Shown here: piece after piece, positions 4,172 to 41,443 of the stretch
Numbering within the stretch: the first letter of the stretch is position 1
Layout: every line of letters starts with the position of its first letter
Source: Anaerolineaceae bacterium
GTDB lineage: Bacteria; Chloroflexota; Anaerolineae; Anaerolineales; Anaerolineaceae
Assembly: GCA_017417055.1 (NCBI GenBank)
Contig: JAFPZX010000029.1
Location: 1-55,865 of the forward strand
Direction: 5' to 3'
Length of the DNA stretch: 55,865 nt
Notes under the pieces: model-generated
What the model was told of the DNA's origin: nothing
Databases searched by the model: none
Seen by the model: only the letters and a program-made list of their open reading frames with translations
Made by a program: the position numbers and the translations under genes

Positions 4172-5195
4172 GGGTTTCTGGTTCCTTTTTTATTATTTGT
4201 CTTATGCGGAGATTGGCCTTTCTCCATTCAAGAAAACTCCGGTTTTCTTTCTGCCACTTGTCAAGTTCCCGGAACAGGATAAACGACGAAACAAGCAATG
4301 CGGTCGAAACAAATGCATGTCCGAAGATACTGACAAGAATCAGCCAGGAGGATTGATTCGGAATGGTCCAGATCATATCCAGCCCGAGCGATAATACAAG
4401 AGAAAATAGAATAAAACGTATGGTCAGCATTCCGCTCCAGGATGCCAGCTGAAAGCTTTCCTTGACGGCATGCGGAAAGTCAAGATCATGCACAAAAATT
4501 CCGTGCGGTATGTAAAACAGAGGAATGACGATCCAGCAAGCCAGGATAATCAGGATCAGCATGAAAATCTGATAAATAAGCGGCGACGTCATAAAAGCGA
4601 ATGTCGTAAGGCAGGCATAGGGGACGGAAAGCAGGACAATCAATATGACAAGCGCGGCATAAAGCAGAATAACGTTCACTGCCTGCATTACGAATGTTTT
4701 GATGTTGAACTTTTTATTCCCGACAGCCAAAGCGGCAAGAGCGTAATAAATTGTTCCGAGCAGCACACCGATGATGATAAATGCAATGACGAGCGGGATG
4801 ATCTGCAATGCGGAGTTCATCTGGATTTCAGCGGATTTCCCCAGTGGCGTGGATGCGGAAGATGACCCCAGAATCACGCTGATGCCGATCGGATAGGTTT
4901 GCAGAAATCCAAACAAATTCACAGATTCCAATGCGCTTACCAGAACGGCAATAGCTGTTTCCAGCTGACGGGACCCTGAATTCCCGGCGGCAGTCATCAG
5001 TTGGCTGAAGGCGGTCTCAAGATAAGGCTGTACATATTCGTTAATGCGCAGCTTTGGGCCGAACAGCAGAAATAAATCTAAGAGCACGGGAAATGCCAAC
5101 AGATAAACCTTACTTGCCGTAAGGTTGCAGCCTTCCCCCAGGATCTTGATAATACCCGGAAGTGGTGTGGTAGAGGGAATTTCACGATTTTCCAT
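4164..5195 (-). CDS. polytopic membrane protein of unknown function
   Basis: A 343-residue integral membrane protein with about five to six hydrophobic segments (roughly residues 30-46, 133-157, 168-195, 205-232, 258-275 and 284-306) and a basic, charged C-terminal tail ending KKEPETHE. A soluble loop of about 85 residues lies between the first and second segments. I recognise no catalytic motif. It sits between plsY and gyrB with short gaps and overlaps gyrB by eight bases, so it is co-transcribed. Synteny with gyrB does not by itself suggest a function. Confidence 0.75.
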
Positions 5196-5927: not shown

Positions 5928-6746
5928 TTATAAGCGGATCAGCGAATAAACCAGGATGAGAAGCACCGGAATTCCTGCCGGCAAAATCCGGCGGATGATG
6001 CTCATGACCGGTTCGTCCCGATCCGCGCCGATTATCAGATTCGTTATTATATAATACCAGAGAAATATAAGAGAACCGTAAGAAACGATATTCACCGGCC
6101 AGTAATGCAGACCGGTATCCGCACAGCAGATGATAAAAGCGGTAACGCAGCCGAGCATCGGAAGACTGCTGCCGATGATGTGAAATGCGTATATTTTCAG
6201 ACTGACGCCCAGACACAGGATAAACATTGCGGGAAGCGTGATGATAAGCCGGGAGACATTGGCCCGCAGCGCAATGGCGAACAGCAGAAACACGGCATAA
6301 CACAGGCTGTCCAGCACAATAATGGATGCGGGCCGGTAGGAAGAATCGGGATCACAGGATATGTATTCAAAGCGCAGTACCAGAAAATGCAGTGCGGAAC
6401 TGACGAACAAAAGCCCCCATCCCGTCAAACCATTGTTCATGTTTCGGAGTGTAAACCCGATCGTAAGGGTAACGGTGAAAGGGAGAAACAAATGAATAAT
6501 GATTTGGTCGCGTGGAATTTGCATCTGCGTGTGAAGCGCATGATACATTCCCAAAACACTTACGACCGCGGCCAGAGGAATGAGCAGCTCCATGGCGTTT
6601 ACACCCAGCCCCAGTGAAAACCCAAAAAGGTTAAAATGGAAGCGGAACAATTCCCGGTCCGTCAGCGAGGCCAGTAAAAAGATGACCGTGACGATTCCCG
6701 TGAGTGTGATAAAGTAATGCGCTCCTTTTTTGCTCTCCATACGCAT
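5928..6746 (-). CDS. multi-pass membrane protein of unknown function
   Basis: A 272-residue, almost entirely hydrophobic protein with seven or eight likely membrane helices separated by very short loops, starting after a basic tail MRMESKKG. It is the first gene of the minus-strand run that continues through plsY (13-base gap), the next membrane protein and gyrB. No motif with catalytic residues stands out. A second in-frame ATG two codons in could also be the start. Confidence 0.7.
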   Translation of the reverse strand: MRMESKKGAHYFITLTGIVTVIFLLASLTDRELFRFHFNLFGFSLGLGVNAMELLIPLAAVVSVLGMYHALHTQMQIPRDQIIIHLFLPFTVTLTIGFTLRNMNNGLTGWGLLFVSSALHFLVLRFEYISCDPDSSYRPASIIVLDSLCYAVFLLFAIALRANVSRLIITLPAMFILCLGVSLKIYAFHIIGSSLPMLGCVTAFIICCADTGLHYWPVNIVSYGSLIFLWYYIITNLIIGADRDEPVMSIIRRILPAGIPVLLILVYSLIRL

Positions 6747-13321: not shown

Positions 13322-13394
13322 CGCCCCTGACTGGACTCGAACCAGCAACCTGCGGTTTAGAAGACCGACGCTCTGTCCGTTGAGCTACAGGGGC
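13322..13394 (-). tRNA. tRNA-Arg (anticodon TCT)
   Basis: The minus strand folds as a complete tRNA: acceptor GCCCCTG/CAGGGGC, D arm GCTC-AACGGACA-GAGC, anticodon loop CTTCTAA (anticodon TCT, reading AGA/AGG), T arm CTGG-TTCGAGT-CCAG. The CCA end is not encoded. The anticodon stem has one T-C mismatch at its outermost pair. It is followed by a strong terminator, and a possible promoter (TTTACA, 19-base gap, TAAAAT) lies about 60 bases upstream on the minus strand. Confidence 0.93.
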
Positions 13395-13515
13395 ATTATG
13401 ATTTAGAAATTATGAAAGTGACCGTTTGGTTCACACAACATGGCTATTTTACCATAATTATGGTTCAGACTGTAAAAATTGACGTAAAATAGTTAAAAAT
13501 CAGGATGTAGAGGTT

Positions 13516-14223
13516 ATGATGAAAGGAAGATATATTTTTTTTACAATCACTGCGCTAATTTTACCCTTCGTTTTGTTGATGAATGCTATTATCCTGATTT
13601 TTACGCCTGCTTATCTGGTTTATGAGTACAAGCGTCCTGATTTCCCTGCGGATCCGTATGGATTTACTCTCGAAGAACGAATCGAATACGGGACAGAATC
13701 AGTGAATTACATTACGGATATCACGCATAAATACCCTGACGATTATCTTGCCGGACTGAAGATGAAAGACGGGACACCGCTTTATAACGAGCGGGAAGTT
13801 TCGCATATGTATGATGTGCGGGTTGTGTTTCAAAATGCACGTGCTGTACTGTCATTTATGATTGTTTTTATCATTGTAACGGTTTTGCTTGTCAGCCGAA
13901 AACCGGATGCTTTACAAGGATTTTTGAAATCCCTTGCCTGGGGTGCATCACTGACACTGGCATTGATCGTTATGGTTGGTGTTGGGATCCTGACCGGCTT
14001 TGATGCTTTTTTTGATGCTTTCCACCATCTTTTTTTTACCGGTGATTCCTGGCTGTTTTGGGAGACTGACTCATTGATCCGTCTGTTTCCTGAACCGCTG
14101 TGGGTACATGGATTCACACTGGCTGCCGGATTGACCGCGTTTTTTGCCCTTCTGATTCTGGTGGTTTCCCTAATATTTTTACAAAAAATCCGGAAACAAA
14201 AAAACAGGCTGCGCCGAAATTGA
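13516..14223 (+). CDS. TIGR01906/DUF1461 family integral membrane protein
   Basis: A 235-residue membrane protein. One N-terminal helix, an external loop carrying PDFPADPYGFTLEERI, then three more helices. The signature FFDAFHHLFFTGDSWLF, followed by TDSLIRLFPE, identifies the DUF1461 (TIGR01906) family, common in Bacillota and Chloroflexota and of unknown role. Two adjacent ATG codons (13516 and 13519) follow an AGAGG site at 13509-13513. The second has the better spacing, so the protein may be one residue shorter. Confidence 0.85.
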   Translation: MMKGRYIFFTITALILPFVLLMNAIILIFTPAYLVYEYKRPDFPADPYGFTLEERIEYGTESVNYITDITHKYPDDYLAGLKMKDGTPLYNEREVSHMYDVRVVFQNARAVLSFMIVFIIVTVLLVSRKPDALQGFLKSLAWGASLTLALIVMVGVGILTGFDAFFDAFHHLFFTGDSWLFWETDSLIRLFPEPLWVHGFTLAAGLTAFFALLILVVSLIFLQKIRKQKNRLRRN

Positions 14224-14307
14224 AGCAATAATGAAATAAACCCGAAATTATAAATCAATGCCGATTTACAAATTTCATGGTAAGATAAAGGCTGAAGGAG
14301 ATGTAAC

Positions 14308-14637
14308 ATGATTGAAGAACCTATCCATGTAACTGATGCCACATATGAAACGGCTGTTTTGAAATCAGAACTTCCTGTTCTGGTTGATTTTTGGGCTCCC
14401 TGGTGCGGACCCTGCAAAATGGTTGGACCGCTGCTTGAACAGGCTGCAAAAAAATATGCAGGAAAATTGATTGTTGCAAAAATCAATATCGATGATGACA
14501 GTGATACCGCCGAAAGTCTGGGTATCCAGTCTATTCCGACGCTTCTTTTTGTCAAAAACGGTGAAATCGTCAATAGAACTGTCGGCTCCATGCCCGCAGC
14601 GGATCTGGATAAGAAAATTCAGGAATTTCTTGCCTGA
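14308..14637 (+). CDS. trxA: thioredoxin
   Basis: A 109-residue cytoplasmic thioredoxin that reduces protein disulfides using electrons from thioredoxin reductase. The active site WCGPCK is at residues 32-37 in the context VDFWAPWCGPCKMVGPLL. The cis-proline loop is SIPTLLFVKNG, and the expected beta strand AKINIDDD precedes it. A strong AAGGAG site (14296-14301) precedes the ATG. A terminator 20 bases downstream makes this the end of a short unit. Confidence 0.95.
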   Translation: MIEEPIHVTDATYETAVLKSELPVLVDFWAPWCGPCKMVGPLLEQAAKKYAGKLIVAKINIDDDSDTAESLGIQSIPTLLFVKNGEIVNRTVGSMPAADLDKKIQEFLA

Positions 14638-32518: not shown

Positions 32519-32618
32519 GGAGGGTTCTGCGCATTGCGCAAAACCCTCCCCAAAACTCAAAAAACAAGGTACAAGGGGAGGGTTTCCGCGTGTACCAATT
32601 AATTAGTGTTTGGCTAAG
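32519..32618. repeat. TIR repeat family 1-like, copy G
   Basis: A hairpin with arms GGAGGGTTCTGCGCA (32519-32533) and TGCGCAAAACCCTCC (32535-32549). About 50 bases later comes AATTAATTAGTGTTTGGCTA, which resembles the right terminal repeat. That end overlaps the last five codons and the stop of the GltD-like gene (32603). Confidence 0.55.
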
Positions 32619-33829
32619 TATTCCTCCATCCTTCCGAATACCTTTTTCGTAAAGGCTACTGCTTCCACGACCGTCCGCGGGCCGGAAACAATATCTCCGG
32701 CGGCGAAAACTCCGGGGGTGGCTGTCTCACCCCATTCGTTTACATCCAGGAGCCCTTTCTGCGTCAGCTTGATACCGGAAGCCCGCATATCCGCGCCGGG
32801 CCCCTGACCAATGGCAATAATGACAGAGTCTGCGGGAACGTCAAAAGTCTCCGTATAGTCTTCTTCGAAGCTCACAGTCCCGTCTTCATTTTCGATGCGG
32901 TTCACGCGCACGCATCTCACGGCGTTTTCCATGATGCGCACTGCCTGTGCATAATGAACGAACTCAACGCCGTCGAGTTCTGCCATTTCTATTTCATCCT
33001 GATTGGCAGTCATTTCGTTCTCTCCCATAAAATGCAGGATGGTAACATGTGAATGACTTCGCCGGATGGCTGTTCTTGCCGCGTCAATCGCGACATTGCC
33101 CGCACCGACGATGGCGACCCGGTTCCCGAGTTTGAACGCCTCCGGGGATTTCAGATAGTCTACAGCAAAATGAACGTGACCCAATGTTTCACCAAGCAGC
33201 CCCAGTTTATTGGGTCTCCCTGTCCCGGTTGAGACAAATACCGCCTTATAACCGTCCGGGAAGAGGTCATCGATCATGATATTGCTGCCGATACGCGTGT
33301 TGGGTCTGAAATGCAGTCCCATGCGCAGCATAACATCTTTATAGATATCCAACAGATCTCTGGGAAGGCGGAAGGGCGGAATACCGTAACGCAATACACC
33401 GCCGATGTTATCCTGTGCCTCAAACATGGTTACATCATATCCGTTCAGTAACAGGAGAATGGACATGGTGATTCCGGCAGGACCGGACCCGGCAACAGCG
33501 ATTTTGATACCGTTTTTTTCTATCTCCGGAATGTCTGTCGTTTCAAGGTAAAACCTGGAAATATAACTTTCTACATTATAAAAATGTACCGGTTCCCCCT
33601 TTTTCCCAAGTACACAGTGTCCGGTGCAGTTCCTTTCATGAGGGCATATGATGGAAGTCACTGCGGAAAGGGGGTTGTTTGTAAAAAGCAGCTCGCCGGC
33701 CTGCTTAATTCCCCCATTCAGAAATAATTCCATGACCTGCGGTATGTCCGTCGCGACCGGACAGTGCGCCGCGCATTGGGGCTTTTTGCATTTCAGACAT
33801 CTTGTCGCTTCCTGTTTTATTGAATACAC
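32603..33829 (-). CDS. GltD-like NAD(P)-dependent flavin oxidoreductase
   Basis: A 408-residue protein of the glutamate-synthase small-subunit/dihydropyrimidine-dehydrogenase-like group. N-terminal Fe-S domain: CLKCKKPQCAAHCPVATDIP and CPHERNCTGHCVLG. Then FAD binding IAVAGSGPAGITMSILL, GGVLRYGIPPFRLP, NAD(P) binding VAIVGAGNVAIDAARTA, and the C-terminal TPGVFAAGDIVSGPRTVVEA. Such proteins move electrons between NAD(P)H and ferredoxin or a partner subunit. No gltB-type large subunit is adjacent. It is divergent from the T-box operon (264 bases between its start and that promoter). Its last residues EYLAKH come from a repeat-like sequence. Confidence 0.87.
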   Translation of the reverse strand: MYSIKQEATRCLKCKKPQCAAHCPVATDIPQVMELFLNGGIKQAGELLFTNNPLSAVTSIICPHERNCTGHCVLGKKGEPVHFYNVESYISRFYLETTDIPEIEKNGIKIAVAGSGPAGITMSILLLLNGYDVTMFEAQDNIGGVLRYGIPPFRLPRDLLDIYKDVMLRMGLHFRPNTRIGSNIMIDDLFPDGYKAVFVSTGTGRPNKLGLLGETLGHVHFAVDYLKSPEAFKLGNRVAIVGAGNVAIDAARTAIRRSHSHVTILHFMGENEMTANQDEIEMAELDGVEFVHYAQAVRIMENAVRCVRVNRIENEDGTVSFEEDYTETFDVPADSVIIAIGQGPGADMRASGIKLTQKGLLDVNEWGETATPGVFAAGDIVSGPRTVVEAVAFTKKVFGRMEEYLAKH

Positions 33830-34093: not shown

Positions 34094-34123
34094 TTGACAA
34101 AACTATCTGCGTTGGTTTAGAAT
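34094..34123 (+). promoter_or_regulatory. promoter of the T-box operon
   Basis: TTGACA (34094-34099), 18-base spacer, TAGAAT (34118-34123). A perfect -35 and near-consensus -10 place the start of transcription near 34130, just ahead of the T-box stem I. Confidence 0.8.
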
Positions 34124-34129
34124 CGGTTT

Positions 34130-34405
34130 TTAAATGCGGTGATGGAAAACCAGTAATAGTTGGTATCGGGACTGCAGAGAGCCGGCGGATGCTGCGAGCC
34201 GGTGCCCCCCAATTATGAATTACCTTCCGGAGCAGCCGGCTGAACCAGATTATTTCACAAGTAGGCCGTGCCGGGTTCGCCCGTTAAAGCGAAAGGGATA
34301 ACTATTACATCCCGCTGAGGCCGGAAATGTGAGTTTCCGGTGAATTGAGGTGGTACCACGGGAATTCTCGTCCTCTGATATCTTGTAAATCAGAGGATTT
34401 TTTTT
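34130..34405 (+). promoter_or_regulatory. T-box riboswitch leader, specifier probably UAU (Tyr)
   Basis: The leader shows the T-box parts in order: AGTAATAG on the 5' side of stem I, GCAGAGAGCCGGC, GGATGCTGCGAGCCGG (apical loop region), the specifier region, CGGAGCAGCCGGCTGAACC, AGTAGGCCGTGCCGGG, and the T-box GAGGTGGTACCACGGG (34347-34362) whose GGTACC-type bulge pairs with the tRNA acceptor end. A terminator follows. The triplet before the conserved GAA is TAT (34214-34216), a Tyr codon. AAT, ATT and the downstream TAC are less likely by position. T-box RNAs allow read-through when the matching tRNA is uncharged, so the operon should be on during shortage of that amino acid. Confidence 0.9.
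34371..34405 (+). terminator. T-box-controlled terminator
   Basis: TCCTCTGAT (34371-34379) pairs perfectly with ATCAGAGGA (34389-34397) and is followed by eight T residues. It overlaps the alternative antiterminator built from the T-box sequence. The first gene's AAGGAGG site begins seven bases after the T-run. Confidence 0.88.
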
Positions 34406-34422
34406 ATAGATAAGGAGGAAAA

Positions 34423-36060
34423 ATGGTAATAACGGATTTTCTGGAACGAAACGCAAGACTTTATGGCAGTGAAATTGCTTTGGTCGAAATCAACCCGTCC
34501 GAAGACCGCGATCACGCGACAACCTGGCGGGAAGCAAATCTGGTAGAAGCGGCCAGCCCTGATGCGCCTTATCGCAGGGAGATTTCCTGGCAGGAGTTTG
34601 ACCGCCGCGCGAACCGTTTTGCGAATCTGCTGCTGAGCCGGGGTGTAAAACGCGGCACAAAAGTCGGTATTCTGATGATGAACTGCCTGGAATATCTGCC
34701 GATTTATTTCGGTATTCTGAAGGCAGGCTGTCTGGCCGTTCCGATGAATTTCCGTTATGCTGCCGACGAGATCCAATATTGTCTGGACCTTGCGGATGTA
34801 GAGATTTTGGTATTTGGACCGGAATTTGTCAGCCGGATGAATGAGATCGTCAATGACATTCCAAAGACAAAGACATTGTTCTTTGTGGGGAAAAACGGCC
34901 CGGAATATGCGGAAAACTGCTTGTATCTGATGGACTTCTGTTCAACCATGGCGCCTCCGGTGGCTCTTGATGAAAACGACTATGCGGCAATCTACTTTTC
35001 TTCCGGTACGACCGGGTTTCCGAAAGCCATTCTGCATCGTCATAAGGCGCTGGTCTGTTCCTGTATGACCGAACAGAAACATCATGGGCAGACGCGTGAT
35101 GATGTTTTCCTCTGCATCCCGCCGCTTTACCATACCGGAGCAAAGATGCACTGGTTCGGCAGTCTGATCGCCGGGAGCAAAGCCGTTTTGCTGCGCGGGA
35201 ATAAACCGAAGTGGATCCTGCGGGCGGTGACCGAGGAAAAATGCACCATCGTCTGGCTGCTGGTCCCCTGGGCTCAGGATATTCTGGACGCGATCGATTC
35301 CGGTGCAATGAATCTTGATCATTATATGCTTGAACAGTGGCGGCTGATGCATATCGGTGCGCAGCCCGTCCCTCCGAGTTTGATTAACCGCTGGAAAAAA
35401 GTTTTCCCGCATCATCAGTATGACACCAATTATGGACTGTCTGAATCGCTTGGTCCCGGCTGTGTTCATCTGGGTGTTGAAAATATCAATAAAGTTGGTG
35501 CGATTGGCAAGCCTGGATATCTGTGGGAAGCACGTGTGGTAAATCCGAACGGGGATGATATCAAGGGGGATGAAGTCGGCGAGCTGATCGTCCACGGTCC
35601 CGGCGTGATGGATTGTTACTATAAAAATCCATATGCCACTGATGAAATTCTGAAAGACGGATGGCTTTATACCGGTGATATGGCAAAACTGGACGAAGAT
35701 GGTTTTATCTATCTTGTCGACCGGAAGAAAGACGTGATCATCACCGGCGGTGAAAACCTTTATCCGGTACAGATCGAAGATTTCCTGAGAGCCTATGACA
35801 AAATCAAAGATGTAGCTGTGATTGGACTTCCCGACCATCGTCTTGGGGAAATCGCGGCTGCTATTATTGAAATCAAACCGGATATGAGCTGCACCGAAGA
35901 GGAAATCACTAATTTTTGTCTTGACCTTCCGCGTTACAAAAGACCGCGTAAAATTATATTCGATAAAGTACCCAGAAACCCAACGGGGAAAATCGAAAAA
36001 CCCGCATTGAGAGAAAAGTACTGCAAAGGCCGTTTGGTTGAAGTCCAGATCAACAGCTGA
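34423..36060 (+). CDS. AMP-forming acyl/aryl-acid CoA ligase
   Basis: A 545-residue ANL-superfamily enzyme that adenylates a carboxylic acid and transfers it to CoA. Motifs: YFSSGTTGFPKAILHRHKAL (phosphate loop), NYGLSESLGPG, LYTGDMAKLDEDGFIYLVDR (ribose-binding Asp and hinge), KDVIITGGENLYPVQIE, and PRNPTGKIEKPALRE with the catalytic Lys. An AAGGAGG site sits five bases before the ATG. It is the first gene after the T-box terminator. From its neighbours the likely substrate is an arylacetate (4-hydroxyphenylacetate, phenylacetate or indoleacetate), but medium-chain fatty acids are an alternative from sequence alone. Confidence 0.88.
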   Translation: MVITDFLERNARLYGSEIALVEINPSEDRDHATTWREANLVEAASPDAPYRREISWQEFDRRANRFANLLLSRGVKRGTKVGILMMNCLEYLPIYFGILKAGCLAVPMNFRYAADEIQYCLDLADVEILVFGPEFVSRMNEIVNDIPKTKTLFFVGKNGPEYAENCLYLMDFCSTMAPPVALDENDYAAIYFSSGTTGFPKAILHRHKALVCSCMTEQKHHGQTRDDVFLCIPPLYHTGAKMHWFGSLIAGSKAVLLRGNKPKWILRAVTEEKCTIVWLLVPWAQDILDAIDSGAMNLDHYMLEQWRLMHIGAQPVPPSLINRWKKVFPHHQYDTNYGLSESLGPGCVHLGVENINKVGAIGKPGYLWEARVVNPNGDDIKGDEVGELIVHGPGVMDCYYKNPYATDEILKDGWLYTGDMAKLDEDGFIYLVDRKKDVIITGGENLYPVQIEDFLRAYDKIKDVAVIGLPDHRLGEIAAAIIEIKPDMSCTEEEITNFCLDLPRYKRPRKIIFDKVPRNPTGKIEKPALREKYCKGRLVEVQINS

Positions 36061-36098
36061 GCCGATCCGAAACGGTTGCTTTGAAAAGAGGAAAAGAC

Positions 36099-37826
36099 AT
36101 GAAAAAATTGTTGTTGGGAAATGAAGCAGTAGCACGAGGCCTTTTTGAAGCTGGCTGTGGATTTGTTTCATCCTATCCCGGGACGCCAAGTACGGAAATA
36201 ACGGAAGCAGCGGCAAAATATGATGAAATCTATGCGGAATGGGCTCCAAATGAAAAGGTTGCTATGGAAGCGGCTTTCGGAGCCAGCCTTTCGGGAACAC
36301 GAAGCTTTTGTGGAATGAAGCATGTTGGATTGAATGTCGCTGCCGATCCGCTCTTCACCCTTTCCTATACTGGTGTCAATGCCGGAATGATTGTTGCGGT
36401 TGCTGATGACGCAGGGATGCATTCTTCACAAAACGAACAGGATTCCCGCCATTACGCTATCGCGGCAAAGCTGCCGATGTTTGAACCATCTGATTCTTCC
36501 GAAGCATTGGAATTTACGAAACTGGCTTATGAAATTTCCGAGCAGTACGATACACCGGTTTTGATGAAGATGTGCACCCGTGTGGCACATTCCCAAAGTG
36601 TTGTAGAATTCAGTGAACGGGTCGAACCCGGGCGGAAACCGTATGAGAGAAACGTGATGAAATGGGTCATGATGCCCGGTATGGCGAAAAAACGTCACCC
36701 AATCGTGGAAGAGCGTACCCGGAAACTGGTTGAATTTGCTGAACATACCGAAATCAACCGCATCGAAGAAGGTTCTGATCACAGTATGGGCATCATCACT
36801 TCTTCGACTTCCTATCAGTATGTAAAGGAAGTCTGTGGGGATAAATATCCGGTTTTAAAACTTGGGATGATCAATCCGCTGCCGGAGCAGAAGATCCGTG
36901 ACTTTGCGGCTTCTGTTGAAAAACTTGTCGTCGTGGAAGAGCTTGACGCAATCATTGAAACCCATTGCCGGAATCTTGGGTTGGAAGTATGCGGAAAGGA
37001 AATCTTCCCGCTGATCGATGAATTCAGTCAAAACCTTGTCGCGGAAAAACTGGGACAACAGAAACACGAAGGTAAGAAGCTTGATGAACCGCTGCCTGCC
37101 CGTCCTCCGGTGATGTGTGCCGGCTGTCCTCATCGCGGATTGTTCTATACGCTTAAGAAGCTGAATTTGACGGTTTTGGGTGATATCGGCTGTTATACGC
37201 TTGGTGCTGCCGCCCCGCTTTCTGCGATAGATACAACGATTTGTATGGGCGCCTCTGTTTCCGGTATTCATGGATATATCAAAGCAGGCAAAGAAGAAAA
37301 CGCCGGCAAGACCGTTGCTGTTATTGGTGATTCCACATTTATGCATTCCGGCGTTACCGGTCTGATCAATATTGCGTATAATGAATCCAATTCTACTGTT
37401 ATTATATTGGATAATTCTATCACCGGCATGACCGGACATCAGCAGAACCCGACAACCGGTATCAACCTGAAGGGGGACCCGGCCGGTAAGATCAACCTGG
37501 AAAAGCTCTGTGAATCCATCGGTATTCCAAACATCCGTGTAGTTGATCCATATAATCTGAGAGAGTGTGAAGAAGTTATCAAAGAAGAACTCGCGAATGA
37601 TGGTGCTTCTGTGATCATTTCCCGCAGACCCTGTGCGCTGCTGAAGTATGTCAAGCATCCGGGACCGATTGCGGTTAACAGTGAAAAATGTGTCGGATGC
37701 AAATCCTGCATGCGTATTGGCTGCCCCGCTATCAGCATAAAAGACGGGAAAGCTGTTATTGATAATACCATGTGCAGGGGCTGCCGGGTTTGCACACAGT
37801 TGTGCAGAGTAAATGCGATTGGATAA
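36099..37826 (+). CDS. iorA: indolepyruvate:ferredoxin oxidoreductase alpha subunit
   Basis: IorA holds thiamine pyrophosphate and two 4Fe-4S clusters and, with IorB, interconverts aryl-2-oxoacids and aryl-acetyl-CoA plus CO2 using ferredoxin. The 575 residues show the N-terminal pyrimidine-binding domain (SSYPGTPSTEITEAAA, WAPNEKVAMEAAFGASLSG), PVMCAGCPHRGLFY, the TPP-binding GDSTFMHSG and ILDNSITGMTGHQQNP, and the terminal ferredoxin domain CVGCKSCMRIGCP and CRGCRVCTQLC. I start at ATG 36099, preceded by AGAGGA. The reaction is reversible with low-potential ferredoxin, which matters for the pathway direction. Confidence 0.93.
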   Translation: MKKLLLGNEAVARGLFEAGCGFVSSYPGTPSTEITEAAAKYDEIYAEWAPNEKVAMEAAFGASLSGTRSFCGMKHVGLNVAADPLFTLSYTGVNAGMIVAVADDAGMHSSQNEQDSRHYAIAAKLPMFEPSDSSEALEFTKLAYEISEQYDTPVLMKMCTRVAHSQSVVEFSERVEPGRKPYERNVMKWVMMPGMAKKRHPIVEERTRKLVEFAEHTEINRIEEGSDHSMGIITSSTSYQYVKEVCGDKYPVLKLGMINPLPEQKIRDFAASVEKLVVVEELDAIIETHCRNLGLEVCGKEIFPLIDEFSQNLVAEKLGQQKHEGKKLDEPLPARPPVMCAGCPHRGLFYTLKKLNLTVLGDIGCYTLGAAAPLSAIDTTICMGASVSGIHGYIKAGKEENAGKTVAVIGDSTFMHSGVTGLINIAYNESNSTVIILDNSITGMTGHQQNPTTGINLKGDPAGKINLEKLCESIGIPNIRVVDPYNLRECEEVIKEELANDGASVIISRRPCALLKYVKHPGPIAVNSEKCVGCKSCMRIGCPAISIKDGKAVIDNTMCRGCRVCTQLCRVNAIG

Positions 37827-37839
37827 GAGGAGAGGTGTC

Positions 37840-38415
37840 ATGGAAACGAAAAATATCATGATCGTTGGTGTTGGCGGGCAGGGAACTCTGCTCGCGAGCA
37901 AACTCCTCGGACGGCTTCTGCTTACCAGAAATTATGATATCAAAGTAAGTGAAGTTCACGGAATGAGCCAGCGCGGCGGAAGCGTGGTTACATATGTCCG
38001 TTATGGCGATAAAGTCTATTCGCCGATTATCGATAAAGGGGAAGCGCATTTCATCCTTTCCTTTGAATTACTGGAAGCAGCCAGAGCAGCGGAATGGTTA
38101 CGTCCTGACGGGACAATCATTACCAATACACAGGAAGTTAATCCAATGCCTGTGGTTACCGGTGCTATGGCTTATCCGGAAGATATTTTGGGAAAATTGA
38201 ATGTGTTGGGGTTGAAAATTGATGCATTGGATGCACTCTCTCTGGCACAGGAAGCAGGTTCTTCCAAAGCTGTCAACCTGGTTCTGTTGGGCAGACTGTC
38301 AAATTATTTCCGCGATTTCACGGAAGAGGAATGGATGACAGCTATTGAGCAGAGTGTTCCGGAAAAGTTTCTCGAAATGAATAAAAAAGCGTTCCATTTG
38401 GGACGGATCGCTTAG
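37840..38415 (+). CDS. iorB: indolepyruvate:ferredoxin oxidoreductase beta subunit
   Basis: A 191-residue gamma-type subunit of the 2-oxoacid:ferredoxin oxidoreductases. Motifs: NIMIVGVGGQGTLLASKLLG at the start, SEVHGMSQRGGSVVTYVRYG and later NLVLLGRLSNYF. It pairs with IorA to complete the CoA-binding active site. I start at ATG 37840, 13 bases after iorA stops and preceded by AGGAGAGG; a longer reading from 37813 would overlap iorA. Confidence 0.92.
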   Translation: METKNIMIVGVGGQGTLLASKLLGRLLLTRNYDIKVSEVHGMSQRGGSVVTYVRYGDKVYSPIIDKGEAHFILSFELLEAARAAEWLRPDGTIITNTQEVNPMPVVTGAMAYPEDILGKLNVLGLKIDALDALSLAQEAGSSKAVNLVLLGRLSNYFRDFTEEEWMTAIEQSVPEKFLEMNKKAFHLGRIA

Positions 38416-38431
38416 GAGTTATTTTTATTTT

Positions 38432-39730
38432 ATGACCAAGTATTTTCAACCCGAAATTGAATGTGCTGATCCGGCTGAACTGAAGAAAATCCAAAGTGAA
38501 AAGCTGGTGAAGCAGGTTTGGCATGTCTGGAACAATGTTCCTTACTATCGTGCCAAGATGGAGGCCAAAGGTGTTACGCCTGAGGATATCCATGGCGTAG
38601 AAGACCTTCACAAGCTGCCTTTCCTTTCGAAAGCTGATTTGAAGGAAGCTTATCCTTACGGACTCATGGGCTGCCCGCGGAAGGATGTGGTTCGGATCCA
38701 TTCCACTTCCGGAACCACAGGAAAACGTGTTATCGCTTTCTATACAAAAGAAGACCTGGATATGTGGTCAGATTGTACTGCCCGCGCAATCATGGCAGCC
38801 GGCGGTGATGAAAACGACGTTGTGCAGGTTTGTTACGGATACGGACTGTTTACCGGCGGTTCCGGTTTGAATGACGGTTCCCACAAAGTCGGCTGCATGA
38901 CACTGCCGATGTCTTCCGGGAACACCGAACGTCAGCTGCAGTTCATGGTGGATCTGGGCGCTACCATTTTGTGCTGTACGCCTTCTTATGCGGCTTATCT
39001 CGGTGAATCGATCAAGGAAGCCGGAATTCGCGACAAGATCCAGCTGAAAGCCGGTATTTTTGGCGCAGAAGCCTGGAGTGAGGAAATGCGCCGTGATATC
39101 CAGAATTCTCTCGGAATTAAGGCATATGATATTTACGGTCTGACAGAACTGACAGGTCCCGGCGTTTCTTTCGAATGTGAGGAACAGAGCGGCATGCACA
39201 TCAATGAAGATCACTTTGTTGCTGAAATCATTGATCCGGAAACAGAGGAAGTTTTGCCGGAAGGGTCTGTTGGTGAACTGGTTTTTACATCTCTTGACAA
39301 AATCGGTTTCCCGATGATTCGCTACCGAACAAGAGATATCTGTGTTCTTCATCGTGAAAAATGCTCCTGCGGACGCACTTTTATCAAGATGGGGAAACCC
39401 ATGGGCCGTTCTGATGATATGCTGATCATCAAGGGTGTCAATGTCTTCCCATCCCAAATCGAAGCTGTATTGCTTGAAGAGGGCTTCCCGGCAAATTATC
39501 AAATTATAGTGGATCGTGTCAATAATTCCGACACGCTGGAAGTTCAGGTTGAAATGACGCCTGAGTTGTTCTCCGATAATTTAGGTAAGATCAGTGATGT
39601 GGAAAAACAGCTTATTGGTTCTCTGAAAGCGATGCTTGGGATTTATGCGAAAGTCCGTCTGGTTGCGCCGAAATCAATCGCAAGAAGTGAAGGGAAAGCT
39701 GTTCGTGTCATCGATAAACGCAAGATTTGA
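38432..39730 (+). CDS. paaK: phenylacetate-CoA ligase family enzyme
   Basis: A 432-residue PaaK-type ANL ligase that makes aryl-acetyl-CoA from arylacetate, ATP and CoA. Motifs: YYRAKMEAKGVTPEDI at the N-terminus, RIHSTSGTTGKRVIAFYT (phosphate loop), YGYGLFTGGSG, KAYDIYGLTELTGPGVSFEC, MIRYRTRDIC, MGRSDDMLIIKGVNVFPSQIE and a C-terminal EGKAVRVIDKR with the expected Lys. It lies 16 bases after iorB. Two different CoA ligases in one operon suggest two aryl acids or complementary affinities. In archaeal and clostridial relatives this gene is a standard neighbour of iorAB. Confidence 0.9.
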   Translation: MTKYFQPEIECADPAELKKIQSEKLVKQVWHVWNNVPYYRAKMEAKGVTPEDIHGVEDLHKLPFLSKADLKEAYPYGLMGCPRKDVVRIHSTSGTTGKRVIAFYTKEDLDMWSDCTARAIMAAGGDENDVVQVCYGYGLFTGGSGLNDGSHKVGCMTLPMSSGNTERQLQFMVDLGATILCCTPSYAAYLGESIKEAGIRDKIQLKAGIFGAEAWSEEMRRDIQNSLGIKAYDIYGLTELTGPGVSFECEEQSGMHINEDHFVAEIIDPETEEVLPEGSVGELVFTSLDKIGFPMIRYRTRDICVLHREKCSCGRTFIKMGKPMGRSDDMLIIKGVNVFPSQIEAVLLEEGFPANYQIIVDRVNNSDTLEVQVEMTPELFSDNLGKISDVEKQLIGSLKAMLGIYAKVRLVAPKSIARSEGKAVRVIDKRKI

Positions 39731-39744
39731 CAGGAAGGTGACTC

Positions 39745-40176
39745 ATGGAAATCTATCAGATCTCTGTATTTTTGGAAAATCAAGCCGGGAAACTTGCCGA
39801 AGTGACCAATATTCTGGCCGAAAATGGAATTGACCTGCGTGCTATCAATATCGCGGAATCGTCTGATTATGGCGTGCTGCGTGTGATTACCAGTGATGCG
39901 GAAAAAGCAGTTGAAACATTGCGGAAACATAATTTCATTGTCAATTGCACGGAAGTTCTTTGTGTCAGTGTTCCGGACAGACCGGGTGGATTGGCTCATT
40001 TACTGCGTATGCTTGCCGCAGAAAATTTTGATGTGGAATATATGTATTCAATTTTTGGTCAGACCAATGGACTTGCATATATGATTTTGCGTGTAGACAA
40101 TATTGAGGAAGTACGTTCTGTTCTCGAAAAAGACGGGATTCATACGGCAGACTGTGCTGAACTTGGTATAAAATAG
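39745..40176 (+). CDS. double ACT-domain amino-acid sensor protein
   Basis: A 143-residue protein made of two ACT modules: YQISVFLENQAGKLAEVTNI (1-70) and VLCVSVPDRPGGLAHLLRML (72-140). ACT domains bind amino acids at dimer interfaces and feedback-regulate enzymes. Stand-alone ACT pairs of this type are commonly encoded next to iorAB and paaK. Here it would be well placed to sense the aromatic amino-acid product and tune one of the ligases or IOR; that role is inferred. It starts 14 bases after paaK. Confidence 0.88.
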   Translation: MEIYQISVFLENQAGKLAEVTNILAENGIDLRAINIAESSDYGVLRVITSDAEKAVETLRKHNFIVNCTEVLCVSVPDRPGGLAHLLRMLAAENFDVEYMYSIFGQTNGLAYMILRVDNIEEVRSVLEKDGIHTADCAELGIK

Positions 40177-40206
40177 CTGTTTTTGAAAAGAAAGGAAAAT
40201 TGCTGC

Positions 40207-41373
40207 ATGAAAGAAATGAGCAGGCGTAATGTCTTGTTTACGGATTCTATTATCCGACGAATGACGAGAATTGCAATCGCGAATAACGCCATCAACCTCT
40301 CTCAGGGGTTTCCGGATTTCGATCCCCCAAAGGAAATGACGGATCGTTTGAAGGAAGTTTCCGCAATGGGACCGCATCAATATCCGATCACCATGGGTGC
40401 TCCGAACTTCAGGCAGGCTCTCTGTGACAAATGCGGACATTTTATGGGTATGAAGTTTGATCCGGATAAGGAAGTCGTCGTAACCATTGGTTCTACCGAG
40501 GCGATGGTGGATACGATTTTTGCCCTGACTAATCCCGGCGACAAGATCATCATCTTCTCCCCTTATTTCGAGAATTACAAAGCGCAGGCTATTTTTGCTG
40601 ACTGTGAACCGATTTTCGTTCCGTTGGAACCGCCGACGTATAACTTTGATCCGGCAGTTTTGGAAGATGCCTTCAAACAGGATCCGAAGGCGATTTTGAT
40701 CTGCAATCCGTCGAATCCTTCCGGTAAGGTCTTCACGATGGAAGAGCTGACCTTCATTGCGGATTTGTGCAAAAAGTATGATGTTTATGCCATCATGGAT
40801 GAACCATATGAACATATCGTTTATGATGACAACAAGCATATTTATATGGCCAGCCTCCCCGGAATGTATGAGCGGACCGTTTCCTGCTCCAGCCTGTCCA
40901 AAACCTATTCCATCACCGGCTGGCGTCTGGGTTACGCCATCGCTCCGGAACCGATCATGGAACGCATTAAACAGTATCATGACTTCAATACTGTAGGGGC
41001 TGCCTCACCATTGATGGAAGCTGCCTGTGTCGGTCTGCGTTTCCCTGACAGCTATTATGTCGAATTCCAGGCGCATTATGCTCATATGAAGGATATTTTC
41101 TGCGGCGGGATGCGCAATATCGGGATTCCGTTCACTGAACCGCAGGGTACTTATTTCGTTTTGGCAGATATCCGTCAGTATATGAAGCCGGGGCAGAATG
41201 ATGTGGATTTCTGCGTTGAAATGACAAAGAAAATCGGTGTGGCTGCTGTACCGGGAAGTTCCTTCTTCAAAGAAGGCGGCGAAGGCATCATCCGTCTGCA
41301 TTACGCGAAGAAAGATGAAACGCTTATCGAAGCATTGGACCGCCTTTCCAACATCAAAAAGATGCTGGACTAA
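40207..41373 (+). CDS. class I/II PLP aminotransferase, probably aromatic
   Basis: A 388-residue fold-type I aminotransferase. Motifs: NLSQGFPDFDPPKEM, GSTEAMVDTIFALTNPGDKI, NPSNPSGKVF, AIMDEPYEH, the PLP-Lys in SSLSKTYSITGWRLGYA, and PGSSFFKEGGEGIIRLHYA with the C-terminal Arg. Similar enzymes act on aspartate, aromatic or branched-chain substrates. Position at the end of the IOR operon favours aryl-2-oxoacid/aromatic amino-acid exchange. I choose ATG 40207, about ten bases after AAAGGA; a TTG at 40183 would add eight residues. A terminator follows 22 bases after the stop. Confidence 0.88.
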   Translation: MKEMSRRNVLFTDSIIRRMTRIAIANNAINLSQGFPDFDPPKEMTDRLKEVSAMGPHQYPITMGAPNFRQALCDKCGHFMGMKFDPDKEVVVTIGSTEAMVDTIFALTNPGDKIIIFSPYFENYKAQAIFADCEPIFVPLEPPTYNFDPAVLEDAFKQDPKAILICNPSNPSGKVFTMEELTFIADLCKKYDVYAIMDEPYEHIVYDDNKHIYMASLPGMYERTVSCSSLSKTYSITGWRLGYAIAPEPIMERIKQYHDFNTVGAASPLMEAACVGLRFPDSYYVEFQAHYAHMKDIFCGGMRNIGIPFTEPQGTYFVLADIRQYMKPGQNDVDFCVEMTKKIGVAAVPGSSFFKEGGEGIIRLHYAKKDETLIEALDRLSNIKKMLD

Positions 41374-41395
41374 GCCGTTTTTTTGAAGTAATCAT

Positions 41396-41431
41396 CAGCC
41401 GGGATGTTATAGCTCCCGGCTGTGTTTTTTT
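41396..41431 (+). terminator. terminator of the T-box/IOR operon
   Basis: CAGCCGGGA (41396-41404) pairs with TCCCGGCTG (41414-41422) and is followed by TGTTTTTTT. It closes the seven-kilobase plus-strand operon. Confidence 0.88.
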
Positions 41432-41443
41432 ATGATTGTTTAG

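Follow-up and report, generated by a model that had tools for sequence, protein, structure and literature searches.

A probable tyrosine-responsive T-box operon for aryl-acid salvage in an Anaerolineaceae bacterium, seemingly acquired with its leader from gut Clostridia or their kin

Introduction

Methanococcus maripaludis is described as having a second pathway to the aromatic amino acids, which uses aryl acids via indolepyruvate:ferredoxin oxidoreductase (IorAB; Porat 2004, as cited in PMC4162585 and PMC3462420). In Bacteroides the enzyme lies beside an arylacetate-coenzyme A (CoA) ligase of the adenosine monophosphate (AMP)-forming type and is proposed to be biosynthetic; AMP-forming ligases are described as preferring acyl-CoA synthesis (PMC13285125). 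A Geobacter iorAB-paaK unit is tabled under regulation of amino acid biosynthesis, together with an upstream conserved sequence (PMC2700814). T-box control of tyrosine supply has its own precedent in the Bacillus cereus group, where tyrosine T-boxes are reported on operons for tyrosine biosynthesis and phenylalanine-4-hydroxylase (PMC2494555). Either direction is open to the IorAB reaction, and the genes present do not by themselves reveal which one is used. Here we describe a locus of an Anaerolineaceae bacterium (assembly GCA_017417055.1) in which a T-box leader heads an operon encoding two CoA ligases, IorAB and an aminotransferase. It occupies positions 34094-41432 of the forward strand of contig JAFPZX010000029.1; the window is the whole stretch of DNA analysed, 55,865 nucleotides (nt), and the host genome is called G000.

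The leader and layout of the operon

A covariance-model search with cmscan placed a T-box leader of family RF00230 at 34130-34378; the match scores 119 bits (E 8.6e-26), above the gathering score of 93. We took as specifier the codon that stands 1 nt before the 3' strand of the Stem I base helix in the cmscan alignment, which here is UAC, for tyrosine (34221-34223). The host genome holds six T-boxes, the operon leader included, and the same rule was correct for all five of the others, which precede ileS (AUC), pheS (UUC), trpD-trpC (UGG), valS (GUC) and a trpB-like gene (UGG), as we named these genes from their translations. TBDB uses a similar rule, with the specifier region 2-4 positions from the loop end (PMC7778990), and T-boxes on ileS and trp genes, as found in this host, are listed for Chloroflexi (PMC2494555). 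A specifier-reading script reproduced three of these five calibrators; it returned nothing for trpD-trpC, and its core pattern did not match the trpB-like leader, so that both codons were taken from the alignments. On the operon leader it ranked UAC first, with ACC as a near alternative.

The T-box bulge, UGGU at 34351-34354, is complementary to the ACCA end of a transfer RNA (tRNA) with A73, and the host tRNA-Tyr (GUA) has A73. By comparison, tRNA-Trp has G73 and both host trp T-boxes carry UGGC; since tRNA-Phe likewise has A73, the bulge rules out tryptophan and not phenylalanine. In the fold of 34303-34410, an intrinsic terminator (34372-34405) overlaps one half of the antiterminator. That segment folds better than its shuffled versions (z -2.52), whereas Stem I alone does not (z -0.2). 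The assignment of this leader as a tyrosine T-box, and with it the regulatory assignment of the operon, is well supported.

A promoter-like site, TTGACA and TAGAAT at 18-nt spacing, lies at 34094-34123, just upstream of the leader. It has 11 of 12 consensus matches and the top forward-strand score of the region. The motif alone is weak evidence, because the scan found 17 sites where shuffles gave 11.5 +/- 3.3. Both hexamers and their spacing are kept in two congeners of the host, G155 and G160; a third, G154, has both hexamers but 13 nt apart. Six close-set genes follow on the same strand, with starts at 34423, 36099, 37840, 38432, 39745 and 40207 and intergenic gaps of 13-38 nt. We chose these start codons beside ribosome-binding-like sites, and the list of open reading frames starts three of the genes earlier. 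The operon closes with a terminator-like hairpin followed by a run of T at 41397-41432, recognized by inspection of the letters. A terminator scan of the region listed neither this hairpin nor the leader terminator, because both have loops of 9 nt and the scan allows 8.

An earlier note, written from the DNA letters alone, had described a promoter, a complete T-box leader with its terminator, six tightly spaced genes and a closing terminator. Each of these elements was recovered here, and the protein families agree with the gene order that it gave: CoA ligase, IorA, IorB, PaaK-type ligase, double-ACT protein and aminotransferase. Its aromatic reading also agrees with the specifier, for the covariance model gives a tyrosine codon and not a non-aromatic one.

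Encoded proteins and host genome

The first gene (34423-36060) encodes an AMP-forming acyl-CoA ligase of 545 amino acids, which we propose to be an aryl-acid-CoA ligase (PF00501, 241.6 bits). Broad acyl-CoA synthetase models matched it, all below cut-off, and its nearest PDB chains are fatty-acyl and feruloyl-CoA synthetases. The next two genes encode the alpha and beta subunits of indolepyruvate:ferredoxin oxidoreductase, iorA (36099-37826; TIGR03336, 705.7 against a cut-off of 650.9) and iorB (37840-38415; NF005325, 258.3 against 230), both of which thus exceed curated cut-offs. The fourth product, a CoA ligase of 432 amino acids (38432-39730), missed the cut-off of the PaaK equivalog TIGR02155 (485.6 against 646.3) and is therefore called only PaaK-like. 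Its best PDB sequence match is the phenylacetate-coenzyme A ligase 4r1l (E 9.8e-118), which we take to be a Bacteroides thetaiotaomicron protein. A protein of 143 amino acids with a pair of ACT domains (39745-40176; PF19571, 90.8 bits) precedes the last, a class I/II aminotransferase of 388 amino acids (40207-41373; PF00155, 203 bits) with seven PDB matches at E 1e-60, among them an aromatic aminotransferase and kynurenine transaminases. Activating ligase, IorAB and aminotransferase are thus encoded together, and the same set occurs in G155, G160 and G154 and at the clostridial loci L053 and L106 described below.

Divergent from the operon, on its 5' side, lies a gene for a GltD-like oxidoreductase of the flavin/nicotinamide adenine dinucleotide (FAD/NAD) type with a Fer4_20 domain (32603-33829, reverse strand). 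It also stands beside the operon in G155 (93% identity), and a 48% homologue is divergent before ligase-iorAB at locus L117. This oxidoreductase might be an electron feeder.

The host genome is a draft of 4.4 Mb, 85% complete with 5.5% contamination. GyrB, single-copy in the genome and encoded on the operon contig, is 96% identical to that of G154, G155 and G160. These findings place the contig in the host, and since the same three congeners also carry the operon, we rejected contamination of the draft as its source. Elsewhere in the genome we noted, upstream of the host tyrA, a glycosyltransferase of the starch synthase type that carries an SCP2 domain at its C terminus (L133, 6510-8333, reverse strand) and a DUF3800-III RNA near the valS T-box (L005, 2624-2732, reverse strand).

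The ligase T-box in gut Clostridia

Searched against a genome collection, the host IorA found matches of up to 76% identity. The best 80 of 593 confirmed matches come mostly from gut and rumen Clostridia, with a few from Treponema, Victivallales and others. T-boxes at loci L049, L053 and L106 in this set read UAC, and those at L063, L069 and L114 read UUC; the L069 match, at 88.1 bits, is under the gathering score. A sodium:solute symporter gene (PF00474, SSF family) lies between ligase and iorA at L053, L106 and L114, which fits uptake of an acid; L045, L048 and L050 have a symporter homologue at that place and no T-box. Between T-box and ligase at L114 we also noted five consecutive Gut-1 RNA matches, all under the gathering score (6237-6659, reverse strand).

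In the order of Candidatus Avoscillospira, 68 of 197 genomes carry the ligase (L053 ligase as query, E 1e-150, the genome of L053 counted). A T-box core heads the ligase operon at 23 of the 68 loci; 12 of these, L053 included, have iorA downstream, and at the other 11 the ligase stands alone or with a symporter. The 1,035,086 bases of these ligase loci hold 25 T-box cores, 23 of them at the head of a ligase operon. The core patterns were written from general knowledge, with Rfam confirmation where stated: all 20 cores submitted matched RF00230, 18 above the gathering score and two at 89.8 and 83.8 bits, and L053 was confirmed separately, while L182 and L208, cut by contig ends, were left out.

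Specifiers were counted as readable in 21 of the 23 leaders, with UAC in 19 and UUC in two (L178 and L183); L187 reads UAC or ACA, and L208 is cut at this point. The script ranked UAC first in 17 of the 19, although in ten of those 17 a codon shifted in register (ACC, ACA or another) came within 1.5 points of it; it missed or misplaced L182, L183 and L212, which were read by eye. At the model specifier position, the ten alignments printed by cmscan (out of 20) show UAC eight times and UUC twice, L183 among the latter. L178 (UUC) and L179 (UAC) share a starred five-row group in the ligase tree; their codons are one base apart, and the leaders also differ at other positions. At L185, a tyrosyl-tRNA synthetase-like open reading frame, recognized by eye, follows a tyrosine T-box unit of ligase, iorAB, paaK and ACT genes (13386-14603, oriented on iorA).

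Ligase and IorA keep company even when their genes lie apart. Of the 43 genomes in which the fetched ligase locus showed no iorA, 42 encode IorA at another place; of the 37 genomes that lack the ligase, 18 encode it (Fisher p 2e-7). Of these 37, 20 were shown to lack the ligase and 17 were assigned by absence from the 68. Two of the 43, G315 and G373, are linked units split over contigs. Within the best 80 IorA loci, a ligase of at least 55% identity is present at 39, at 24 of them on the same strand.

The T-box is not a rule on iorAB, an expectation that we rejected: a pattern search, with only short upstream stretches at several loci, found no credible T-box at the 42 separate IorA loci. The sole core hit there, at L273, was judged not credible, and reverse-strand cores at L044, L055 and L069, which lie inside iorB, were taken as chance. 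L063 and L069 are exceptions, where a phenylalanine T-box heads iorAB without a ligase and a YerC/YecD-type gene lies between. This TrpR-related gene (L063, 9654-9965; L069, 9627-9944) is matched by Pfam Trp_repressor at both loci; the NCBIfam comparison covered L063. The switch thus mostly follows activation and uptake of the acid, the steps that commit it to salvage, and extends to iorAB where the genes are linked. The earlier note had suggested surveying relatives for T-boxes before iorAB; the arrangement does recur in relatives, but it mostly tracks the activating ligase, with or without a symporter, and not iorAB.

Origin of the operon

Leader and ligase were detected by DNA in three of 12 congeners, and all six genes are present in those three. 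The leader of G155 scores 119 bits and has UAC as specifier. In G154, a hairpin resembling a terminator, though with a poor run of T, is still present; this leader remnant (L132, about 4190-4390) has a changed T-box sequence and, with the leaders of G160 and G155, makes a natural decay series.

Outside the congeners, full-length IorA matches from the host order reach at most 54% identity (151 genomes sampled from a larger group), with 58-59% for two short fragments. A quick IorA tree of 102 rows unites the host with its three congeners in one clade. This clade falls within the 80 collection rows, in a starred set of 15 to which the tyrosine T-box loci L049, L053 and L106 also belong, and away from the host order, represented by 18 of the 29 rows fetched. 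A quick ligase tree of 71 rows (54 of the 68 Avoscillospira-order loci, 13 others and four of the host genus) groups the host and the three congeners with L049, again starred. The operon leader shares 58-63% identity with the leaders of L049, L053 and L106, 56-60% with the three phenylalanine leaders before ior units and 44-55% with the remaining five of the host. Because of these trees and leader similarities, the simplest reading of the sequences is that operon and leader were transferred together from gut Clostridia or their kin.

Two other histories were considered and set aside. For an origin within the host's own order, 30 genomes were searched for T-boxes, picked for strong matches from the 123 in which IorA had any match; among the 150 strongest matches listed, no T-box lies within 15 kb of an IorA match above 150 bits. 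On contig C33 of genome G114, a T-box lies 0.6 kb from a weak relative (33 bits) and is directed away from it. A single origin of the ligase T-box was not borne out either, for the ligase tree needs at least 15 label changes, ten of them forced by starred branches.

Discussion

We consider it probable that this locus is a tyrosine-responsive T-box operon for aryl-acid salvage, acquired with its leader from gut Clostridia or their kin. When tyrosine runs short, uncharged tRNA-Tyr (GUA) would pair with UAC in Stem I and, through its ACCA end, with UGGU. The antiterminator would then form and the operon be transcribed, if this leader exerts the tRNA-dependent antitermination expected of its family. 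Protein families and neighbouring genes suggest the following chemistry: an aryl acid would be joined to CoA by the first ligase, with the PaaK-like ligase as a possible second catalyst; IorAB, with reduced ferredoxin, would carboxylate the arylacetyl-CoA to a 2-oxo acid; the aminotransferase would convert this into the amino acid; and the ACT pair may sense the product. In relatives, tyrosine shortage would also turn on uptake of the aryl acid. The most likely substrate of the ligase is 4-hydroxyphenylacetate because the specifier is that of tyrosine, and this substrate and the chemical direction of the route are both predictions from sequence.

A tRNA-Tyr switch on the activating ligase is an independent sign of that direction. 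The argument of the earlier note, that induction by starvation fits synthesis or salvage and not catabolism, gains from the UAC specifier, from the related leaders that read tyrosine or phenylalanine codons and from the symporters. The specifier also predicts the substrate of a ligase family for which the library searched holds no specific model. More tentatively, we suggest as possible, and a little short of likely, that gut Clostridia and their transfer partners respond to tyrosine starvation with a regulon for capturing 4-hydroxyphenylacetate, discarded by other gut microbes, and converting it to tyrosine, with the T-box on symporter and ligase and with a specifier that tells the substrate, UAC for 4-hydroxyphenylacetate and UUC for phenylacetate. 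The switch on the ligase makes it testable whether gut bacteria reuse one another's aryl-acid waste to make amino acids.

Several observations weigh against the salvage reading. For the first ligase, none of the 25 NCBIfam models shown scored above its cut-off, and a search of the host draft genome for the symporter turned up no relative. Within the best 80 IorA loci, 13 of which have less than 2.5 kb upstream of iorA, an Rfam-matched T-box precedes the unit in only six; cmscan found none at the gathering score at 15 loci where the ligase gene precedes iorA in the same orientation, drawn from 17 core-negative loci with L117 and L122 left out. The pattern search likewise saw no T-box core at 45 of the 68 ligase loci, five of the 68 having less than 350 nt upstream and two of these five still showing the core. 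In G231, a T-box stands over symporter and ligase, yet IorA was not found. As for the congeners, the leader of G160 is degenerate (64.4 bits, with UAU possible when read by eye), and G154 has kept the operon behind a leader without Stem I and without a T-box match at E 0.01.

The need for the operon is a further point on that side, because the host has TyrA and PheA genes adjacent on contig C65 and a second prephenate dehydratase domain in a 636-amino-acid open frame (G000:C144:3193-3732). For this host we therefore rejected the idea that the operon fills a missing tyrosine step. The TyrA-type domain PF02153 is also present in four of the six genomes of the T-box loci among the best 80 and in 33 of the 42 genomes searched overall. 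Given TyrA and PheA, the operon would be a salvage branch and not the sole route. The reading of the earlier note, that the operon probably builds aromatic amino acids from arylacetates, is supported, as salvage beside the pathway that the host keeps.

Other readings of the same genes are possible. The ligase under the T-box could make an acyl-CoA for another purpose or from another acid, such as an arylpropionate, with IorAB as incidental company; its fatty-acyl and feruloyl-CoA synthetase neighbours in PDB, the broad synthetase models matched only below cut-off and the 11 of 23 T-box loci without iorA after the ligase would all suit this. We hold it unlikely, since presence of the ligase predicts IorA (42 of 43 against 18 of 37) and since a ligase at 55% identity or more is present at 39 of the best 80 IorA loci, in 24 cases in the same orientation as iorA. 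Very unlikely, in our view, is a fermentative operon, in which tyrosine or phenylalanine would be degraded to aryl acids by aminotransferase and IorAB, with the T-box as an oddity. IorAB is catabolic elsewhere, as in the SigL-dependent aminotransferase-iorAB-butK unit of Clostridioides difficile (PMC7438776), and an oxidative branch in Clostridium scatologenes yields 4-hydroxyphenylacetate (PMC13285125). However, those units are described with kinases whereas the ligases here are AMP-binding enzymes, and tyrosine starvation would then induce the destruction of tyrosine. Moreover, the T-box sits on a ligase away from iorAB at 11 of 23 loci, and some T-box units include a symporter.

A slighter chance still is that the leader is a passenger of the gene transfer, nonfunctional in this lineage, with the operon at a basal level. 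The signs of transfer and the degenerate and truncated leaders of G160 and G154 are what it would lead one to expect; the 119 bits and promoter-like site kept in both host and G155 are not, nor are the matching tRNA-Tyr of the host and its five other T-boxes, which precede standard targets. Salvage under a tyrosine switch remains our preferred reading, and the T-box appears to have moved with the operon to a distant lineage and to be decaying in part of it.

In the open-access literature we found no report of T-box control over iorAB or an aryl-acid ligase; TBDB, RegPrecise and most subscription papers were outside this search, and an earlier table entry is possible. PMC7438776 and PMC2700814 mention both T-box and iorA, but separately in the portions consulted.

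Compared with the systems described before, the operon shares with the M. maripaludis route the proposed use of aryl acids for aromatic amino acids through IorAB; that route is archaeal, and the sections available to us make no mention of a T-box, whereas the operon here is bacterial and has a tyrosine T-box. Its pairing of IOR with an AMP-forming ligase is that of Bacteroides, for which the accessible part of the account mentions no starvation switch. The Geobacter iorAB-paaK unit resembles it in gene pairing and in its biosynthetic listing; it is listed for tryptophan, however, and the T-box footnote of that table, as far as the available text goes, names leuA only. With the B. cereus group it has in common a T-box over tyrosine supply, but the targets reported there are the shikimate route and phenylalanine hydroxylation, as against the proposed salvage of aryl acids here. 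T-box operons and reverse IorAB are thus each known, and what we rate as new is their union as a salvage regulon.

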